From: Desulfobotulus alkaliphilus
GTDB taxonomy: Bacteria > Desulfobacterota > Desulfobacteria > Desulfobacterales > ASO4-4
DNA length: 64,000 nt
Direction of reading: 5' to 3'
Assembly (NCBI RefSeq): GCF_007830435.1
Contig: NZ_VLLC01000001.1
Location: 82,007 to 146,006, forward strand
Shown here in pieces: positions 1 to 60,910 of this stretch (position 1 is the first letter of the stretch; each line of letters begins with the position of its first letter). The translations under genes were made by a program, and so were the position numbers. The notes beneath the pieces were generated by a model. That model saw only the letters and a list, made by a program, of their open reading frames with translations. It did not search any database and was not told the origin of the DNA.

Positions 1-124
1 CTGCAAAGCTCTGATCCGAAACGATTGCAATGTCACTTTCAAATAGCCTCGGAGCCTTGCAACAGTACGAAGCTGCTGCAATGACTGCATTGGTAGTTCG
101 ACATAAATTGTGCTGAATAATTAC
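1..124 (+). mobile_element. Palindromic MITE-like element, copy 1 (cut by window edge)
   Basis: This is the right-hand part of the dispersed palindromic element seen in full at 27166-27516. It enters the window in the right arm of the central hairpin, at the stretch reading CTGATCCGAAACGATTGCAA, and ends with the right terminal inverted repeat TGTGCTGAATAATTAC at 109-124. The left arm and any left target duplication lie outside the window. It encodes no protein. It lies upstream of the SIS-domain gene in the same strand sense. Confidence 0.85.
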
Positions 125-7233: not shown

Positions 7234-7424
7234 GTAACTGTTCAGCACAGTTTTCCAGGCACCATAGCTGCAAGACAGATGCACAGGCCCCAGGCTGTTT
7301 CCCCGTGACGCAATCCGGAACGATTGCAATGTCACTTGCAAATAGCCACGGAGCCTTACTAAGAGTACGAAGCTGCTGCAACTACAGCATTGGCAGTTCA
7401 GAATAAACTGTGCTGAATAATTAG
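7234..7424 (+). mobile_element. Palindromic MITE-like element, copy 2 (short form)
   Basis: The left end GTAACTGTTCAGCACA and right end TGTGCTGAATAATTA are the family's terminal inverted repeats. The outer arms match the 345-351-bp copies closely, but the central hairpin is gone: GTGACGCAATC is joined through CCGGAA to the right arm ACGATTGCAATGTCAC, leaving 191 bp. No 8-bp target duplication is visible. It lies between convergent genes, and its right end supplies the TAA stop codon of the ETF alpha gene at 7421-7423 on the minus strand. Confidence 0.85.
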
Positions 7425-12468: not shown

Positions 12469-12815
12469 GAACATGTTCAGCACAATTTCTAATTTCCATA
12501 TCTGTCAGGCAGATGCACAGCCCCCCAAACTATTTGACCGTGACGCAATCTTATTCGGGAGCTTCTTGCCCTGTGCGGAAGCGGCAAAAACTCCCCGCCA
12601 CAGGCAGGATAAGCTTTTTGGTTACCATAGCAAACTCAAGTACGCTGCCTTTGTGGCGGCTCAGACAGTTTGCCGCTTCTTTCGCACAGGCCTTCAAAGC
12701 TCTGATCCGAAACGATTGCAACGTCACTGGCAAATAGTCAGGGGGCCTTGCAACGGTACGAAACTGCTGCAATTACAGCATTGGAGTTTCAAAATAAATT
12801 GTGCTGAACTATGAC
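12469..12815 (+). mobile_element. Palindromic MITE-like element, copy 3
   Basis: This full-length 347-bp copy has diverged ends (GAACATGTTCAGCACA on the left, TGTGCTGAACTATGAC on the right) and the complete central hairpin. Flanks AAAACAAT at 12461-12468 and AAAACATC at 12816-12823 agree at six of eight positions and look like a decayed 8-bp target duplication. It separates the TetR gene from the kinase gene, whose start codon is at 12843. Short open frames across it are not genes: they follow the repeat in other copies on both strands. Confidence 0.88.
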
Positions 12816-25699: not shown

Positions 25700-27130
25700 A
25701 TGGCCATAGAACTCCGACAACAACTGAAACTGACCCAGCAGCTTGTCATGACGCCCCAGCTCCAGCAGGCCATCAAGCTGCTTCAGCTTTCCCGCCTTGA
25801 GCTGGTGGACGCCATTCAGCAGGAACTGGAACAGAACCCCGCCCTGGAAGAACGCATGGAGGCTCCGGATGCAGAGACACCGGAAGTCAGTGAAACACCT
25901 GCTTCGGAAGACTCCCTTCAGGAAATTGAAATCAGCGAAAAGGTAAGTGCGGAAACAGACTGGGACAGCTATCTGGATGAATACAGCAGTACGGGCCGGG
26001 TGCATTTTGAATCCGAGGAAAGGGAAGCCCCCCGCTATGAAAACTTCATATCGGGAAAAGAAACCCTGCACGAGCATCTCCTCTGGCAGCTTTCCATGAC
26101 AGGAGCAGACATCCGGACCCAGCAGCTTGCAGGCCTTATCATCGGCAACATCAATACGGATGGCTACCTTGACACCGGTGTTGAGGATATCGTGGGGGTC
26201 AGTGACTGCCCGGAACGCCAGGTGCTGGAAGCCCTGAGGCTGGTCCAGTCCTTTGACCCTCCGGGTGTTGCTGCGAGAAACCTCCAGGAATGCCTGCTGC
26301 TGCAGATCAAACGCCTTGGCATTGCATCGGATGTGGTGGAAAAAATCATATCCCAACATTTAAAGCACCTTGAAAATAAAAACTTCAAGGCCATCGCCAA
26401 AAGCCTGAAACTGTCCATTGAAACCGTTATTGCTGCCGTTTCCCTTATCCGGTCCTTAGAACCCAAACCCGGCAGGGAATACCACCATGAAGCCCCCGTT
26501 TATATCACCCCGGATATTTATGTCTACAAACATGGCAACGACTTTCTCATCAGCCTGAATGATGATGGCTTGCCAAGGCTGCACATTAACCCCTATTATA
26601 AAAAAGCCATGAGAACAGGGGAAAAGGTTTCAGGAGAAACCAAAGAATATCTTCAGGAAAAAATGCGTTCCGCCTCCTGGCTGATCAAAAGCATACAGCA
26701 GCGGCAAAAAACCATTTACAATGTGATGGAAAGCATTGTCCGTTTCCAGAGGGATTTTTTTGAAAAGGGCATTGCCCACCTCAAACCCATGGTTCTCAGG
26801 GATGTGGCCCAGGACATACAGATGCACGAATCCACCATCAGCCGGGTCACGACCAATAAATATGCCTATACGCCCCAGGGTCTTTTTGAACTCAAATATT
26901 TTTTCAACAGCTCCATCAGCCGGGTGGAAGGCGAGGCCATGGCATCGGCCAGTGTCCTTGATAAAATCAAACAGCTTGTGGAAAGCGAAGACCCGCAAAA
27001 ACCTTACAGTGACCTTAAGCTTGCCGAAATCCTTGAAAAGGAACACAATATAAACATCGCCAGAAGAACCATTGCCAAATACAGGGAAATACTAAAGATT
27101 CTTCCGTCAAGCAAACGCAGGCAGTATTGA
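25700..27130 (+). CDS. rpoN: RNA polymerase sigma-54 factor
   Basis: The 476-residue sigma-54 has the glutamine-rich activator-interaction region I (QQLKLTQQLVMTPQLQQAI), an acidic linker, the core-binding region (SFDPPGVAARNLQECLLLQI), the HTH region (VAQDIQMHESTISRVTTNKY) and the RpoN box ARRTIAKYRE near residue 455. The start lies one base after the lptB stop codon, so expression is coupled. It serves activators such as the response regulator at 14774. The conserved rpoN-hpf neighbourhood is interrupted here by a palindromic mobile element right after the stop. Confidence 0.97.
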   Translation: MAIELRQQLKLTQQLVMTPQLQQAIKLLQLSRLELVDAIQQELEQNPALEERMEAPDAETPEVSETPASEDSLQEIEISEKVSAETDWDSYLDEYSSTGRVHFESEEREAPRYENFISGKETLHEHLLWQLSMTGADIRTQQLAGLIIGNINTDGYLDTGVEDIVGVSDCPERQVLEALRLVQSFDPPGVAARNLQECLLLQIKRLGIASDVVEKIISQHLKHLENKNFKAIAKSLKLSIETVIAAVSLIRSLEPKPGREYHHEAPVYITPDIYVYKHGNDFLISLNDDGLPRLHINPYYKKAMRTGEKVSGETKEYLQEKMRSASWLIKSIQQRQKTIYNVMESIVRFQRDFFEKGIAHLKPMVLRDVAQDIQMHESTISRVTTNKYAYTPQGLFELKYFFNSSISRVEGEAMASASVLDKIKQLVESEDPQKPYSDLKLAEILEKEHNINIARRTIAKYREILKILPSSKRRQY

Positions 27131-27157: not shown

Positions 27158-27524
27158 TTCAGTCCGTAACTATTTAGCATCGTTTTCCAAGTACCATACC
27201 TGCAAGACAGATGCACAGGCCCCAGGCAGGCTATTTGCCCGTGACGCAATCTTATTCGGGAGCTTCTTGTCCTGTGCGGAAGCGGCAAAAACTCACCGCC
27301 ACAGGCAGGATGCGCTTTTTTATTACCATAGCAAGCCTTGGTACGCTGCCTTTGTGGCGGCTCAGACAGTTTGCCGCTTCTTTCGCACAGGCCTGCGAAG
27401 CTCTGATCCGAAACGATTGCAATGTCACTTGCAAATAGCCACGGAGCCTTGCAACAGTACGAAGCTGCTGCAATTACAGCATTGGCAGTTCAGAATAAAC
27501 TGTGCTGAATAATTACTTCAGTCC
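27158..27524 (+). mobile_element. Palindromic MITE-like element, copy 4, with 8-bp target duplications
   Basis: The element spans 27166-27516 (351 bp). Ends are GTAACTATTTAGCATC and TGTGCTGAATAATTAC. Perfect 8-bp direct repeats TTCAGTCC at 27158-27165 and 27517-27524 flank it, showing insertion by transposition. The interior folds on itself: GGCTATTTGC...GTGAC occurs in both arms in opposite sense, and the central part (GTGACGCAATC to GATTGCAATGTCAC) is a further long hairpin. It sits between rpoN and hpf, whose close linkage is conserved in many genomes. It has no coding capacity. Confidence 0.92.
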
Positions 27525-27577
27525 TTATTATGAAAGCCCATCTGCTTTCACCAACATCCCATGCAGGAGGAACACCC

Positions 27578-28147
27578 ATGAAGACATCCGTAACCTTCAA
27601 GAACATCGAACCCTCCGAAGCACTGAAAGATTACGCCACCAGCAAGCTCTCCAGACTGGACAAGCATTTTGACGGTCCCGCCGAAGCCCAGGTGGTTCTG
27701 TCTGTGGAAAAAATACGCCACATTGTGGATGTGCGCATTACCTGTGACCGTCTGAATCTTCAGGCCACGGAAGAAACGGAAAACATGTATGCAGCCCTGG
27801 ATCTGGTGGTGGACAAACTGAAAAACCAGATCCGCAGAACCAAAGAAAAAACCCGTGAAAAACGTCCCGTTTCCAAGGGCGGCATCAAAGGTGCTGAAGC
27901 AGCCATGGCTGTTGCAGAAAGCATCCGGGAGGCGGATGAGGATGCTTTACATCCGGAAACAGCCAAAGATACCGGTTTTGTCATTGAATCCATGCCCTTC
28001 AAACCCATGGATGCCGAAGAGGCCGCCATGCAGCTTAAGATATCCGACAGGGATTTTATCGTTTACACCGATGCGCGCACAGAGCAGGTCAATGTTGTTT
28101 ACAGAAGAAAAGACGGAGATCTGGGACTGATTCAGCCCATGGCCTGA
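27578..28147 (+). CDS. hpf: Ribosome hibernation-promoting factor, long form
   Basis: Long HPF dimerises 70S ribosomes during starvation. The 189-residue protein has the S30AE domain (residues 1-105, TFKNIEPSEALKDYATSKLSRLDKHF) and the C-terminal dimerisation domain (about 130-185, FKPMDAEEAAMQLKISDRDF then VVYRRKDGDLGLIQP). CAGGAGG lies seven to eight bases before ATG 27578. It normally follows rpoN directly; here a 351-bp insertion lies between, so its expression may depend on read-through or on sequences in the element. Confidence 0.95.
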   Translation: MKTSVTFKNIEPSEALKDYATSKLSRLDKHFDGPAEAQVVLSVEKIRHIVDVRITCDRLNLQATEETENMYAALDLVVDKLKNQIRRTKEKTREKRPVSKGGIKGAEAAMAVAESIREADEDALHPETAKDTGFVIESMPFKPMDAEEAAMQLKISDRDFIVYTDARTEQVNVVYRRKDGDLGLIQPMA

Positions 28148-28237: not shown

Positions 28238-28696
28238 ATGAAACTTCTGGATATTCTGACAAGAGACACCATCCTCACCGACCTGCAGGCCAAAGACAAG
28301 CCTGCTGTTTTAGAGGAGCTGCTTGCCCCCCTCAGCCAGACTTCCGCACCGTCAAAGGAAGCGCTTATGCAGGTACTGATGGAAAGGGAAAGGCTTGGAA
28401 GTACGGGCATTGGCGATGGCATTGCCATTCCCCACGGCAAGCTGGACAATCTTGAAGATATCTTTCTGATCTTTGGGAAAAGCCGCAGGGGCGTTTCCTT
28501 TGACGCCATGGACAACCGGCCGGTCCACCTTTTTTTTGTCATTCTGACACCGGCTGCCGAAACGGGCCTTCATCTGAAAATTCTGGCAAGAATATCCAGA
28601 CTCCTGCGGGAACCCTCCGTAAAAAACAGACTCCGTCAGGCTTCAAGTCCAGAAATGGTTTTAGAAGCCATTGCCCCCATGGACGAAGATTTTTAA
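28238..28696 (+). CDS. ptsN: PTS nitrogen-type IIA protein
   Basis: EIIA-Ntr is a phosphocarrier that regulates nitrogen, potassium and envelope functions rather than sugar uptake. The 152-residue protein has the phosphohistidine motif GIAIPHGKL near residue 66 within the GSTGIGDGIAIPHGKL context, and the closing LARISRLLREPSVKNRLRQA. Length and motif match PtsN. It follows rpoN-hpf and precedes rapZ, the standard deltaproteobacterial and gammaproteobacterial order. The EI and HPr proteins that would phosphorylate it are not in the window. Confidence 0.94.
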   Translation: MKLLDILTRDTILTDLQAKDKPAVLEELLAPLSQTSAPSKEALMQVLMERERLGSTGIGDGIAIPHGKLDNLEDIFLIFGKSRRGVSFDAMDNRPVHLFFVILTPAAETGLHLKILARISRLLREPSVKNRLRQASSPEMVLEAIAPMDEDF

Positions 28697-32677: not shown

Positions 32678-32690
32678 AGCTTAAAAATAT

Positions 32691-32775
32691 GCCGAAGTGG
32701 TGGAATAGGTAGACACGCTGTGTTGAGGGCGCAGTGGGGAGACCCGTGCCGGTTCAAGTCCGGCCTTCGGTACCA
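32691..32775 (+). tRNA. tRNA-Leu (GAG)
   Basis: The 85-base class II tRNA has acceptor GCCGAAG pairing with CTTCGGT (one G-U), anticodon stem CTGTG/CGCAG with loop TTGAGGG (anticodon GAG), a long variable arm and TTCAAGT T-loop. The CCA end is encoded. It is the intact member of a near-identical pair; the other lies at 33024. Confidence 0.95.
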
Positions 32776-32843
32776 TTTTTTTACCTTGCCATACCAGCAA
32801 CCCATGGAACAGCCGGGTTATAAAGCGTAATAATCATGAATCC

Positions 32844-32928
32844 GGTGGGGTTCCCGAGTGGTCAAAGGGAACAGACTGTAAATCTGTCGGCCAAGCCTTC
32901 GGAGGTTCAAATCCTCCCCCCACCACCA
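32844..32928 (+). tRNA. tRNA-Tyr (GTA)
   Basis: This class II tRNA has acceptor GGTGGGG pairing with CCCCACC, anticodon GTA in the loop CTGTAAA, a variable arm and GTTCAAATC in the T-arm. CCA is encoded. The position in the Leu-Tyr-Glu cluster supports the call. Confidence 0.95.
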
Positions 32929-32933
32929 CATGC

Positions 32934-33011
32934 GTCCCCATCGTCTAGCCCGGTCCAGGACACCGGCCTTTCACGCCGGCGACAGGGGTTCGAATCCCCT
33001 TGGGGACGCCA
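32934..33011 (+). tRNA. tRNA-Glu (TTC)
   Basis: The 78-base tRNA starts GTCCCCATCGTCTAG and ends GGGGACGCCA, nearly the same as E. coli tRNA-Glu. The anticodon TTC sits in the loop CTTTCAC between stems CCGGC and GCCGG. CCA is encoded. It begins only five bases after tRNA-Tyr. Confidence 0.95.
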
Positions 33012-33023
33012 TTAAAAATTTAA

Positions 33024-33108
33024 GCCGAAGTGGTGGAATAGGTAGACACGCTGTGTTGAGGGCGCAGTGGGGAGACCCGTGCCGGTTCAAGTCCGGCATT
33101 CCGCAACA
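33024..33108 (+). tRNA. Second tRNA-Leu (GAG) copy with damaged acceptor end (probable pseudo-tRNA)
   Basis: The first 74 bases are identical to the tRNA at 32691. The last 11 differ at four positions (ATTCCGCAACA against CTTCGGTACCA). The 5' GCCGAAG then mispairs at acceptor positions 3 and 7, and the encoded end is ACA rather than CCA. The 3' end resembles a GCGGAAG/CTTCCGC-type leucine tRNA, so it looks like a hybrid, perhaps by gene conversion. It is probably poorly functional or inactive. Confidence 0.75.
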
Positions 33109-33116
33109 TTTTTTTC

Positions 33117-33761
33117 CTACGCAATTCCACTTTCCTGCCTGCTTTCAGCAAATGCCTTCAGATAATCCATCAGCTCCATGGAAGCCTGGACAGCCCTGTC
33201 GGAATCTCCACAGGATACCCCATCAAGAATTTTTCTGTACAGACCTGCACCCCTGTGTGAGTCCGAAGTCCCTTTGTTCATAAACCAGAACCGTCGGGAC
33301 CGGCTGAGGAGCGGACTCATGGCCTGGGCAAAAAAAAGATTCTGCGTTGCCTCCACAAGTACATCATGTATTTCCCGCAGACAGACAAGCACCTCTGCAT
33401 CGTCATCTTCCATGGCAGCTTCCATGATGGCATTTGCCAGCATCCGCATTCTTATTTTTTGTTCCTCAGTCGCCCGCATGGCTGCATGATGCACACAGGC
33501 CCCTTCTATGGCCCTTCTCACTTCCAGAAGCCGAAGCTGTTCATCCACACTTAACTTGACTATCTGGATACCCCGGCGGGGATGGATCATTACCATGCGG
33601 TCATGGGAAAGGCGCTGCAAGGCTTCCCGCACTGGCGTCCGCCCAAGGCCGAGACGCATGGCCAGTTGCTTTTCAGAATACATCTTTCTTGTTTCAAGGA
33701 TATTAAAAACGATCAGTTTTTCAAGGCCTGCCCGGGCCTGTTCCGCAAGGGTTTTATGCAT
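33117..33761 (-). CDS. GntR family regulator with FCD domain
   Basis: The 214-residue protein has a winged helix at about residues 8-75 (QLAMRLGLGRTPVREALQRLSHDRMV then a HPRRGIQIV wing), typical of GntR, followed by an all-helical FCD ligand domain with the EVRRAIEGACVHHAA and LREIHDVLVEATQN segments. FCD regulators usually sense organic acids or sugar acids. It lies alone next to the adenylate cyclase gene, 28 bases downstream of it in the same direction, and could be co-transcribed. The effector and targets are unknown. Confidence 0.9.
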   Translation of the reverse strand: MHKTLAEQARAGLEKLIVFNILETRKMYSEKQLAMRLGLGRTPVREALQRLSHDRMVMIHPRRGIQIVKLSVDEQLRLLEVRRAIEGACVHHAAMRATEEQKIRMRMLANAIMEAAMEDDDAEVLVCLREIHDVLVEATQNLFFAQAMSPLLSRSRRFWFMNKGTSDSHRGAGLYRKILDGVSCGDSDRAVQASMELMDYLKAFAESRQESGIA

Positions 33762-35852: not shown

Positions 35853-36071
35853 ATGAAAAACAAGCCCAGACGCATCAACTGCCACCGCTGCCGCCACTAC
35901 TACGTCACCTGGGAGCCCCGTTTTCCCCATGGCTGCAGGGGCTTAAATTTTAAAAGCCGGGAAATTCCCTCCCTTGTGGTCTTCAGAAGTTCCGGCCAGC
36001 CCTGTCATTTTTACGCGCCCAAAAAAATGAATACGGAAAAACAATCAAAACCCGGAGACATCATTATCTGA
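35853..36071 (+). CDS. Small cysteine-rich protein (CxxC, putative metal binding)
   Basis: The 72-residue protein starts MKNKPRRINCHRCRHYYVTWEPRFPHGC and carries CHRC plus two more Cys (HGC, PCHF), enough to bind zinc or iron. The sequence resembles a small family seen in Desulfobacterota and often mislabelled as uracil-DNA glycosylase; I see no glycosylase motif. It lacks a clear ribosome site. It lies alone between the divergent adenylate cyclase and a mobile element, which starts three bases after its stop codon. Function unknown. Confidence 0.65.
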   Translation: MKNKPRRINCHRCRHYYVTWEPRFPHGCRGLNFKSREIPSLVVFRSSGQPCHFYAPKKMNTEKQSKPGDIII

Positions 36072-36426
36072 GTGTAATTATTCAGCACAATTTATTTCGA
36101 ACTGCCAATGCTGTCATTGCAGCAACTTCGTACTGTTGCAAGGCTCCGAGGCTATTTGAAAGTGACATTGCAATCGTTTCGGATCAGAGCTTTGCAGGCC
36201 TGTGCGAAAGAAGCGGCAAACTGTCTGAGCCGCCACAGAGGCAGCGTGCTTAAGCCTGCTATGGTAAGCAAAAAGCTTATCCTGCCTGTGGCGGGGAGTT
36301 TTTGCCGCTTCCGCACAGGGCAAGAAGCTCCCGAATAAGATTGCGTCACGGGCAAATAGCCTGGAGCCTGTGCATCTGTCTTGCAGGTATGATATGAAAA
36401 ACTATGCTGAATAATTACATCTGAGT
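36066..36426 (-). mobile_element. Palindromic MITE-like element, copy 5 (inverted), with 8-bp target duplications
   Basis: The element spans 36074-36418 (345 bp) and is the only copy in reverse orientation. Its plus-strand ends read GTAATTATTCAGCACA and ATGCTGAATAATTAC. Perfect 8-bp direct repeats ATCTGAGT at 36066-36073 and 36419-36426 flank it. It is intergenic between convergent genes; the right target duplication ends at the last base of the thyX stop codon. The ends and the central hairpin are the family standard. Confidence 0.92.
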
Positions 36427-43989: not shown

Positions 43990-44336
43990 GTAATTGTTCA
44001 GAACAATTTTCCAAGTATCATACCTGCCAGACGAATGCACAGGCACCCAGACTATTTGCCTGTGACGCAATCTTATTCGGGAGCTTCTTGCCCTGTGCGG
44101 AAGCGGCAAAAACTCCCCGCCACAGGCAGGATAAGCTTTTTGATTACCATGGCAGGCTTCATCACGCTGCCTTTGTGGCGGGTCAGACAGTTTGCCGCTT
44201 CTTTCGCACAGGCCTTCGAATCTCTGATCCGAAACGATTGCAATGTCACTTGCAAATAGCCAGGGTGCCTTGCTGCAGTACGAAGCTCCTGCAGTTGCAG
44301 TATTGGAATTTCAGAATCAACTGTGCTGACAGTTAC
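43990..44336 (+). mobile_element. Palindromic MITE-like element, copy 6
   Basis: This 347-bp full-length copy has ends GTAATTGTTCAGAACA and TGTGCTGACAGTTAC and the complete central hairpin. The flanks are A-rich on both sides (AAAAAACG at 43981-43988 and AAAAAAAC at 44337-44344), so a target duplication is plausible but not exact. It lies between pyrD and the DUF2147 gene. The rest of the gap (44337-44494) shows no gene. Confidence 0.88.
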
Positions 44337-53975: not shown

Positions 53976-54179
53976 AAAAAGGAGTAACGATTTAGCAGAA
54001 TTTTCCTTTGGTAAATCGAATACCTTTAATCAGGTGCATAGACAACCGGACCATTTGTTCGTGACGAAACGATTGCAATGTCACTCACAAACAGCCCGAT
54101 TGTCTTTTGCCAGAACAAATGTTTTGAAATTAAAATACAATTTTTCAAGTTAAAATGTGCTGAATAATTATAAAAAGGA
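53976..54179 (+). mobile_element. Palindromic MITE-like element, copy 7 (short form), with 8-bp target duplications
   Basis: The element spans 53984-54171 (188 bp), with ends GTAACGATTTAGCAGA and ATGTGCTGAATAATTAT. Perfect 8-bp direct repeats AAAAAGGA at 53976-53983 and 54172-54179 flank it. It lacks the central hairpin: GTGAC is followed directly by GAAACGATTGCAATGTCAC. It is the most diverged copy in the arms, yet its target duplication is perfect. It splits the rsbTX-rsbR gene pair; the AAAAAGGA on the right overlaps the ribosome site of the RsbR-like gene. Confidence 0.88.
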
Positions 54180-60273: not shown

Positions 60274-60471
60274 GCCAATGAAACGATTGTTCCCAGTTTG
60301 AAACGGGAGCAGGGGCATTCAATCTTCTTTTTTCCACCCATATCTGCACAGCCTTAGTGTAAAACATTAAAATTTAAACATTTCACAGAAGCCCTGATTT
60401 AATAAAGATGCGGTAGAAGCCTCCTTAAAAATAAAAAATTGAAAAAATCAATTTTTTGTTAAAAAAAGCAT

Positions 60472-60500
60472 TGACAGACCAGACACTTTTCTTTAGTGTT
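60472..60500 (+). promoter_or_regulatory. Promoter of the cold-shock gene
   Basis: TTGACA at 60472-60477 and TAGTGT at 60495-60500 are separated by exactly 17 bases. Transcription near 60507 would give a 5' leader of about 128 bases before the start codon, typical of cspA-type genes whose leaders respond to cold. The A/T-rich stretch at 60425-60470 may act as an upstream element. The rest of 60274-60471 shows no gene. Confidence 0.65.
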
Positions 60501-60634
60501 CAAGCCTCAATAGGTGCAACTCTATTGGCAAAAGCAAAATAGATGTGGAACCATCTTGACGATGATTATACAAATATAAATGCTGCCAATGATGAACACC
60601 ACTTCAGATACAAACAGATGTTAAGGAGAAGACA

Positions 60635-60835
60635 TTGGCAGAAGGCACTGTAAAATGGTTTAATGAGTCTAAAGGTTTTGGTTTTCTTGCAACGGATTCC
60701 GGAGAAGATGTTTTCGTACACTTTTCTGCTATTCAGAGCAGTGGTTTTAAAACGCTTCAGGAAGGTCAGCGTGTTCAGTTTGATATTGTAAACGGCCAGA
60801 AAGGCCCGGCAGCTGACAAAGTAGTACCTCTGTAA
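60635..60835 (+). CDS. Cold-shock domain protein
   Basis: The 66-residue CspA-family protein has the RNA-binding motifs KGFGFL (RNP1) near residue 13 and DVFVHFSAI (RNP2) near 25 and starts [14 protein letters not shown]. The start codon is TTG at 60635, with TAAGGAG nine bases upstream. It binds single-stranded RNA or DNA and acts as an RNA chaperone at low temperature or in growth. It has its own promoter and terminator. Confidence 0.95.
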
Positions 60836-60870
60836 TTTTCAATAATTACAGGCAAAATTGAATAAAACAT

Positions 60871-60910
60871 AACGACCGTCCTGTTTTTCACACAGGACGG
60901 TCGTTTTTTG
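60871..60910 (+). terminator. Intrinsic terminator after the cold-shock gene
   Basis: ACGACCGTCCTGT at 60872-60884 pairs perfectly with ACAGGACGGTCGT at 60892-60904 around a short loop and is followed by TTTTTT. It is a strong terminator. Confidence 0.92.

Follow-up and report, generated by a model that had tools for sequence, protein, structure and literature searches.

Between rpoN and a hibernation-factor gene of Desulfobotulus alkaliphilus lies a non-coding palindromic element that recurs nearby and folds on itself, which raises the questions of what kind of element it is, what moves it and whether its fold is under selection. The window (the whole stretch of DNA that was analyzed, 64,000 bp) belongs to a 4.0 Mb draft genome, G000. 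Compared with it were G001 and G002 from the same genus, G002 being a sister species, and a distant genome of the order, G079 (the MAG Desulfobacterales DeMMO2_31, contig C453 = L275, 65% complete).

Copies in the window and across the genome

The MITE copy at 27166–27516 (+ strand, 351 bp) is preceded by the Sigma54 gene (25700–27130) and followed by the Ribosomal_S30AE gene (27530–28147) and then by a PTS EIIA gene. The 8-bp target duplications TTCAGTCC occupy 27158–27165 and 27517–27524. The left terminal inverted repeat, GTAACTATTTAGCATC (27166–27181, + strand), is a degenerate version of GTAAYTRTTCAGCACA, and the right one is TGTGCTGAATAATTAC (27501–27516, + strand). The inner hairpin as modelled with R1, where it is the first row of alignment A2, extends over 27255–27413 (+ strand) and includes the match to a second model, R2 (27265–27397). 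Within it lie the two sides of a conserved internal loop, 5′ AACTC (27290–27294, + strand) and 3′ CTCAGACAG (27361–27369, + strand).

All seven copies counted by the initial annotation were located in the window. Three further long copies have a conserved hairpin core as defined by the R2 match. These lie at 36074–36418 (− strand, 345 bp; core 36193–36325, − strand), at 12469–12815 (+ strand, 347 bp, with decayed ends; core 12564–12696, + strand) and at 43990–44336 (+ strand, 347 bp, with the imperfect flank repeat AAAAACGT / AAAAAAAC; core 44086–44218, + strand). Two short copies have no inner hairpin: 7234–7424 (+ strand), with the junction GTGAC-GCAATCCGGAA-CGATTGC, and 53984–54171 (+ strand), which belongs to a diverged subfamily. 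The seventh is the right part of a copy at 1–124 (+ strand), the left part of which precedes the window (contig C2 from 81883), with a 10-N assembly gap in its apex just outside the window (C2 before 82007). The perfect 8-bp repeats that had been noted at three copies are present, TTCAGTCC at 27158/27517, ATCTGAGT at 36066/36419 and AAAAAGGA at 53976/54172. Elsewhere in the window, a tRNA cluster (32683–33129) has two tRNA-Leu(GAG) in 114-bp repeats that are 89% alike and flank tRNA-Tyr and tRNA-Glu, and a match to the Rfam cspA thermoregulator lies at 60447–60906 (+ strand, 87.6 bits, threshold 78).

G000 contains roughly 250–380 copies. Searched genome-wide with at most 2 mismatches allowed, a 16-base arm motif gave 243 matches and the reversed control 0, which bears out the expectation of further genomic copies; a first-look screen of the genome gave 291 candidates, of which 40 were scored. 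Contigs C2 and C3 (628 kb of the 4.0 Mb) contain 59 places, fragments included, which extrapolates to ~380. The element had been described as always intergenic, and 0 of these 59 places lies within a gene as called by a simple gene finder of our own; in a separate count, open frames of at least 120 codons contain 20 of 146 cores.

As had been stated, the element has no transposase coding capacity. It folds on itself, as also noted, and is far more stable than shuffled sequences on either strand (+ strand −141.6 kcal/mol, z −7.9; − strand −164.4 kcal/mol, z −9.9; 0 of 100 shuffles equally stable in each case). The size of 345–351 bp given initially is the main form, but sizes are more varied: copies in G000 with exact duplications fall at 183–188, 309, 345–351 and 443–476 bp; over all genomes sampled, copies with exact duplications span 177–476 bp, every one being shorter than 600 bp. 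The 443–476-bp form has a palindrome TCCGGCACTCAAG...CTTGAGTGCCGGA in both arms; on C2 and C3 this palindrome of ~71 bp occurs at recurring spots in one or both arms of long forms and resembles a second nested repeat. Some copies have a left extension of ~60 bp starting GTAACTTCTGAGTAACTTC (32 genomic sites with up to 2 mismatches), which is exact at 12 of the 32 sites and resembles GTAACTTCT of the resident IS66 element. The extension is sometimes tandem (L028:1439–1500, C2:254847–254908, C3:251276–251352), and its first nine bases are those of the resident IS66.

The form of ~185 bp has no inner hairpin. A sample of 71 arm-motif sites was drawn from C2, C3 and 20 further loci. The core is kept at 55 of them, and six have no inner hairpin, with five different junctions. 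Seven sites are short with an insert (two of these are assembly gaps and five retain one CCGGC palindrome), two are long without a recognizable core and one is without a left arm. Among 24 further sites near left extensions, L124 repeats the junction GCAATCCGRAA of the 7234 copy (as in G002), and two loci, which belong to different subfamilies, have the core-less junction GAAA. The mostly private junctions suggest separate apex deletions, and given the recurring ones (L124; GAAA at two loci) some core-less forms may either have spread or have originated twice. With the L124 recurrence, and with private junctions expected from palindrome slippage anyway, the junctions say little about whether core-less copies fail to spread. 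Runs of ten N at the apex of some copies (C2 before 82007, L106, L109 and similar) are assembly gaps at the palindrome centre, so that some copy lengths in the draft are unreliable.

Recent mobility and IS66-type ends

Ends were placed by similarity to GTAAYTRTTCAGCACA alone and blind to the flanks, so that the flanks could not steer the choice of ends. Both ends lay within 4 mismatches of GTAAYTRTTCAGCACA at 56 of the 71 sites, with terminal inverted repeats starting GTAA. Exact 8-bp duplications, initially noted at three copies, were found at 26 of these 56 copies in G000 (shuffled mean 0.47), at 11 of 18 in G079 (shuffled 0.71) and at 4 of 10 in G002 (shuffled 0.4). Other repeat lengths (4–7 and 9–11) were near background, and about half of the copies with recognizable ends are without an exact duplication. 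The insertion targets in G000 are AT-rich (62–88% per position). Several G079 copies (L073, L086, L093, L098) end TTAG followed by TGCCYGAACGAMA, or start after TTTTCGTTCAGGCA, as if by one extended end or by insertion into another repeat.

The window and the orthologous region of G002 have a median identity of 89%. The copy at 36074–36418 lies opposite an empty G002 site with one ATCTGAGT. In the reverse case, a G002 copy flanked by GATTTTTA lies opposite an empty site of the window at ~28688–28695 with one GATTTTTA. Six window copies could be tested in this way: four are absent from G002 (27166, 36074, 43990, 53984) and two are common to both genomes (7234, where the G002 copy is likewise without the hairpin, and 12469). 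Around 27166 and 53984 the next ~35 bases are unaligned, so that the G002 empty sites there are not base-exact. The G002 copy at the 12469 locus is inverted and has an extra CCGGCACTCAAG module. This locus is otherwise collinear with G002, yet the element is inverted and of another size class, a difference that looks as if it arose by arm recombination or by in-place conversion. The element has been recently mobile, and its ends and duplications are of the IS66 type.

In the available text of PMC11946415, IS66 elements have 8-bp repeats and inverted repeats starting GTAAGCG. The IS66 transposase domain PF03050 is present in 157 of 389 genomes of the order. We examined the surroundings of 58 IS66 loci, some of them overlapping; 41 gave a candidate GTAA...TTAC pair, the weak ones probably by chance. 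Besides the resident type, three classes of IS66 ends stand out: GTAAGCG (~2.4 kb), GTAAATATTCGG (~2.7 kb) and GTAACTAYTCAG (1.59–1.76 kb). The GTAACTAYTCAG class consists of L184, L185, L187 and L188, from four other genomes of the order; their PF03050 transposases are ~40–70% identical and all four have perfect 8-bp duplications. The ends of these single-ORF elements are GTAACTATTCAGC(A) or nearly so. Those of L187 are GTAACTATTCAGC, those of L188 are GTAACTATTCAGCA on both sides, those of L185 are GTAACTA(C/T)TCAGCG and those of L184 are GTAACTACTCAGGC. The G079 MITE has the ends GTAACTATTCAGCA, identical to L188 at 14 of 14 positions on each side. A common left end of the G000 element, GTAACTGTTCAGCACA, has one difference from the GTAACTAYTCAG-class ends in the first 13 positions.

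The search for an IS66 transposase with matching ends was therefore successful in part: L187 and L188, and nearly L185 and L184, have such ends and lie in other genomes, but none was found in the genomes that bear the element. No PF03050 match was found in G001, G002 or G079 (all drafts), and no IS66 element with matching ends was found in the four draft genomes that have the MITE or its G079 relative. The single IS66 gene of G000 (L049, contig C66) has the ends GTAACTTCTCAATAAG / GTAACTTCTCAATAAGTGTAGG without matching flanks; this resident element was rejected as the partner as its ends diverge after GTAACT. Pairing of element-like ends that lie within 9 kb of each other, in C2, C3, C66 and 20 small loci (~17% of the genome), gave no convincing autonomous copy; one weak pair of ends in L021 was rejected, one of its ends having 5 mismatches.

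When both MITEs were compared with five IS66 elements (blastn), nothing below E 0.06 was found except for the terminal 14 bp. With only the terminal 13–14 bp in common, the MITE is by this comparison not an internal-deletion derivative of IS66. Judged from its duplications, the empty sites and the same-ended IS66 elements elsewhere in the order, the element is an IS66-type MITE, with an interior that did not come from IS66. The initial reading of an IS66-type MITE is upheld by its GTAA ends, its 8-bp duplications and those same-ended elements. The predicted type of transposase is well supported, and the actual partner element was not found in the genomes with the MITE.

A hairpin core conserved across elements with different ends

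The suggestion that the fold is an RNA or DNA structure under selection was the more important part of the initial annotation, and it agrees with covariation beyond controls in three alignments (A2, A4 and A5), in each of which the score was reached by 0 of 500 shuffles. An earlier alignment, A1, had 46 rows, four of which were spurious results of loose pattern matching (L197:12659, L194:3996, L211:4582, L066:1234). These four and four redundant G000 rows were left out of A2, which comprises 38 inner hairpins of G000, G001, G002 and G079. A2 has 96.4% paired cells and a covariation of 0.260, versus 0.153 ± 0.008 when shuffled. As much of this covariation is one change between two clades, we built the covariance model R1 and searched the order. 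Of 23 rows of R1 matches from genomes not used in training, 21 keep AACTC and CTCARACA, with stems that differ.

Model R2 was made from 35 rows with <75% arm identity, none of them from the window's genus, and finds the four long copies of the window with E values of 9.5e-6 to 1.6e-4. In A4 (36 dereplicated rows, from which L355 was left out), the covariation is 0.536 versus 0.163 ± 0.018; its core letters are constant in most rows through the way these were chosen, namely by the exact pattern. A5 has 56 rows, of which, as some loci overlap and identical rows were counted once, 46 are distinct R2 matches from 48 chosen loci, mostly found by R1 or R2 and at least one of them also an A4 locus. 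Its covariation is 0.782 versus 0.217 ± 0.017, with double changes in 15 of 15 pairs and a covariation of at most 0.19 in slid controls; as A5 was fitted to the model, these counts lean towards structure. The unpaired columns of A5 are 97–100% constant for AACTC and 95–100% constant for CTCARACAG apart from the R position, and AACTC...CTCARACA is strictly present in 39 of the 46 distinct rows. The length of the loop varies freely and the stems compensate. Elements that differ in their ends retain the internal loop of the core as well as its pairing.

In a search by DNA similarity, 4 of 96 relatives had the 351-bp element, namely those of the window's genus and G079, where the relative is 236 bp long and has the same kind of ends. 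The core reaches further. At E ≤ 1e-3, R1 matches 22 of the 389 genomes searched in the order, from 10 families; this count includes the four training genomes, and the other 18 had no part in training. R2 matches 61 of 395 genomes of the phylum, from 34 families, some of these genomes having contributed rows to it. The distribution is patchy, with no match in G015, which is placed in the genus of G079. The exact pattern GCAAAAACTCG N4-30 CTCAAACAGTTTGC occurs in at least 120 stretches of a public genome set, against ~0.01 by our own chance estimate. Among the matches listed are Desulfobacterota, Bacteroidota, Pseudomonadota and Bacillota. They include, again among the matches listed, the isolates Desulfobulbus elongatus DSM 2908 and D. 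rhabdoformis DSM 8777 (Desulfobacterota); Bacteroides, Minthousia and the isolate Taishania pollutisoli (Bacteroidota); an Oceanospirillaceae MAG (Pseudomonadota); and Agathobacter MAGs (Bacillota).

In 19 genomes chosen for having the pattern, R2 gave 1 to 70 matches each; a Bacteroides MAG has 35, the Oceanospirillaceae MAG 8 and two Agathobacter MAGs 28 and 17. Members from beyond Desulfobacterota are for the most part MAGs, and misbinning of single contigs is therefore conceivable. The exact core pattern had 0 matches in viral contigs, and one core-bearing query (L297:775–1000) had no phage match. Against plasmids, the same query matched four large records in its leader part only, and together with the absence of viral pattern matches this led us to reject a phage or plasmid origin.

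The carriers of the core are of several types. Those of the window's genus and G079 have IS66-type ends and 8-bp duplications. Others have TGATGANNTCGTAAAAAGTC ends and are mostly 188–193 bp long; these TGATGANNTCGTAAAAAG elements have exact 4-bp repeats in 11 of 23 cases and 5-bp repeats in 2 (shuffled 0.09 and 0.13). Three types were read by eye from few examples each: elements with ACTCAACTTTCGACTTTCAT ends in G012, one copy of which has CAATT on both sides; Desulfobacterota and Bacteroidota elements with the leader TACTTTTCTTTGCTTGCCCAAAGAAAAGTA; and another palindrome, from Agathobacter. At L409, L410, L411 and L412 of the Bacteroides MAG the core units are paired in inverted orientation, each pair being bounded on either outer side by short leader hairpins, and this pairing was seen in 4 of the 4 Bacteroides places examined. 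A TACTTTCTTTGCTTGCCCAAAGAAAGTA-like leader, common to core-bearing elements, also precedes sequence without an R2 match at L364, L365 and L366 (Ilyobacter, Pseudoalteromonas and Aeromonas); at the Aeromonas locus a TwoAYGGAY-like hairpin follows that leader with 41.5 bits (threshold 43).

Possible roles of the core

We assign a probability of about 0.8 to the reading that the element is an IS66-mobilized MITE with a non-IS66 interior and a conserved apical module that probably acts in cis for the element. An IS66-family transposase acting in trans would recognize the terminal repeat GTAAYTRTTCAGCACA, as the matching ends elsewhere suggest, and insertion into AT-rich intergenic DNA would yield the 8-bp duplication. 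The interior is a long imperfect hairpin with the module at its apex, variable stems around near-constant 5′-AACUC / 5′-CUCARACAG, and palindromic repeats with other ends have the same module in four phyla. The module would most likely act in cis, as a folded RNA or as a single-stranded DNA to which a widely conserved protein binds, and such binding may favor the amplification or persistence of the element. It may reach other element types through the capture of new ends or by exchange at the palindrome apex.

A cis role is proposed because, in an element that is non-coding and multi-copy, no other part is as constant across phyla as the loop, and because host selection on each copy is implausible; the proportion of sites at which the core is kept and the variety of core-less junctions are at most a weak hint in the same direction. 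A stronger form of the proposal, to which we give somewhat less than an even chance, is that the module is a portable part acquired by differently ended MITEs and palindromic repeats, where it would aid spread or persistence and be recognized by a conserved cellular protein. In the main texts of the literature searched, such an "engine part" is not described for any MITE class.

An alternative that we consider unlikely regards the core as a regulatory RNA, cis-acting or small, from which the host benefits and which MITEs spread as useful cargo. Covariation with a constant internal loop is typical of structured RNA, and UUCG-type apical loops occur among the cores. The setting on C2 and C3 is also compatible with this view, with 20 of 59 places lying between convergent genes versus 50 of 350 gaps (not weighted by length) and copies in tandem gene settings often lying close 3′ of a stop codon. 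However, the core strand has no clear bias relative to the neighbouring genes (17:15 opposite:same in one count, 35:22 same:opposite in another), and therefore a cis-regulatory RNA is not favored. In addition, the hundreds of copies lie by unrelated genes, which would make selection on each implausible, and none of the 4227 covariance models of Rfam 15 matches the element or the core.

It is similarly improbable that the core is a nested mobile unit that inserts into the apices of palindromes, for example via a hairpin-recognizing transposase. The constancy of the apex amid outer arms and ends that vary between taxa would be expected of such a unit, as would the occurrence in Aeromonas, Pseudoalteromonas and Ilyobacter of loci that have a similar leader but are not matched by R2 and the inverted, REP-doublet-like arrangement of units in four Bacteroides pairs. 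Against it, neither a sharp boundary of insertion nor a duplication was seen around the core, and complementarity continues from the core into the arms.

A further view would see an ordinary IS66-derived MITE, the interior of which is a functionless random palindrome kept complementary by arm-to-arm template switching. Its ends and duplications are plain IS66, the apex is deleted in several copies, and arm-to-arm correction in quasi-palindromes can produce compensatory changes without selection. But what is constant in the core is the unpaired loop, while the stems vary, and the same loop occurs in other phyla within palindromes that have other ends. This cross-phylum constancy leaves the view disfavored for the core, and we regard it as very unlikely. 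That the interior is a decayed short protein-coding gene has a negligible chance of being correct: by eye, an open frame can be followed along one strand of a typical copy, but single-base indels between copies (345–351 bp), free variation of loop length and compensating stems speak against it, and a protein-coding remnant was rejected as unsupported given the indels.

Compared with known systems, the element and the IS66 GTAACTAYTCAG-class insertion sequences (1.59–1.76 kb, single ORF) are alike in terminal repeat and 8-bp duplication; unlike the MITE, the latter encode a PF03050 transposase, and the two have nothing significant in common inside the terminal 13–14 bp. The element is also comparable to bacterial MITEs of the 200–500 bp class such as Chunjie of Geobacter uraniireducens (235 bp) and QMITE2 of Coxiella. 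In the available portions of their descriptions, these are short, non-coding and mostly intergenic, with inverted ends, target duplications, stable folds and size classes (PMC10969869, PMC5896051). The same portions mention no core common to MITEs with other ends across phyla.

REP, REPIN and RAYT systems resemble the element as high-copy intergenic hairpins with an imperfect stem, and the inverted pairs of Bacteroides resemble doublets. REP sequences are palindromes tagged with GTAG or CGTC, with the constant tetranucleotide at the foot of the hairpin; in REP/RAYT systems this is GTAG or GGAG and comes with a RAYT gene (Y1_Tnp). Unlike REP, the elements described here have 8- or 4-bp duplications at their ends, and their constant part is an apical internal loop.

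The motifs TwoAYGGAY (RF01731), Desulfotalea-1 and GUCCY-hairpin are, in the available text of Weinberg et al. 2010, conserved hairpins of Proteobacteria or Bacteroidetes without known function (PMC2864571). The core has no Rfam 15 match; Desulfotalea-1 and GUCCY-hairpin have no Rfam number in the table of that paper, and the core may equal one of them. The core is not described in the main texts of the literature searched; among the papers listed as containing core strings, titles and abstract openings are unrelated.

The usual view of bacterial MITEs is that of shrunken insertion sequences, selected only for their ends. In the present elements it is the ends that vary from lineage to lineage, and the middle, with its strong covariation, stays the same across phyla; thus selection seems to act on the internal structure. 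The question of how some non-autonomous elements reach hundreds of copies is thereby made testable, with natural insertions between sister species and core-less variants as test material, and a search model has been gained for a widespread, unannotated structured element. The presence of a conserved hairpin at the centre of unlike repeats in very distant bacteria suggests an unrecognized structural part that aids their spread.
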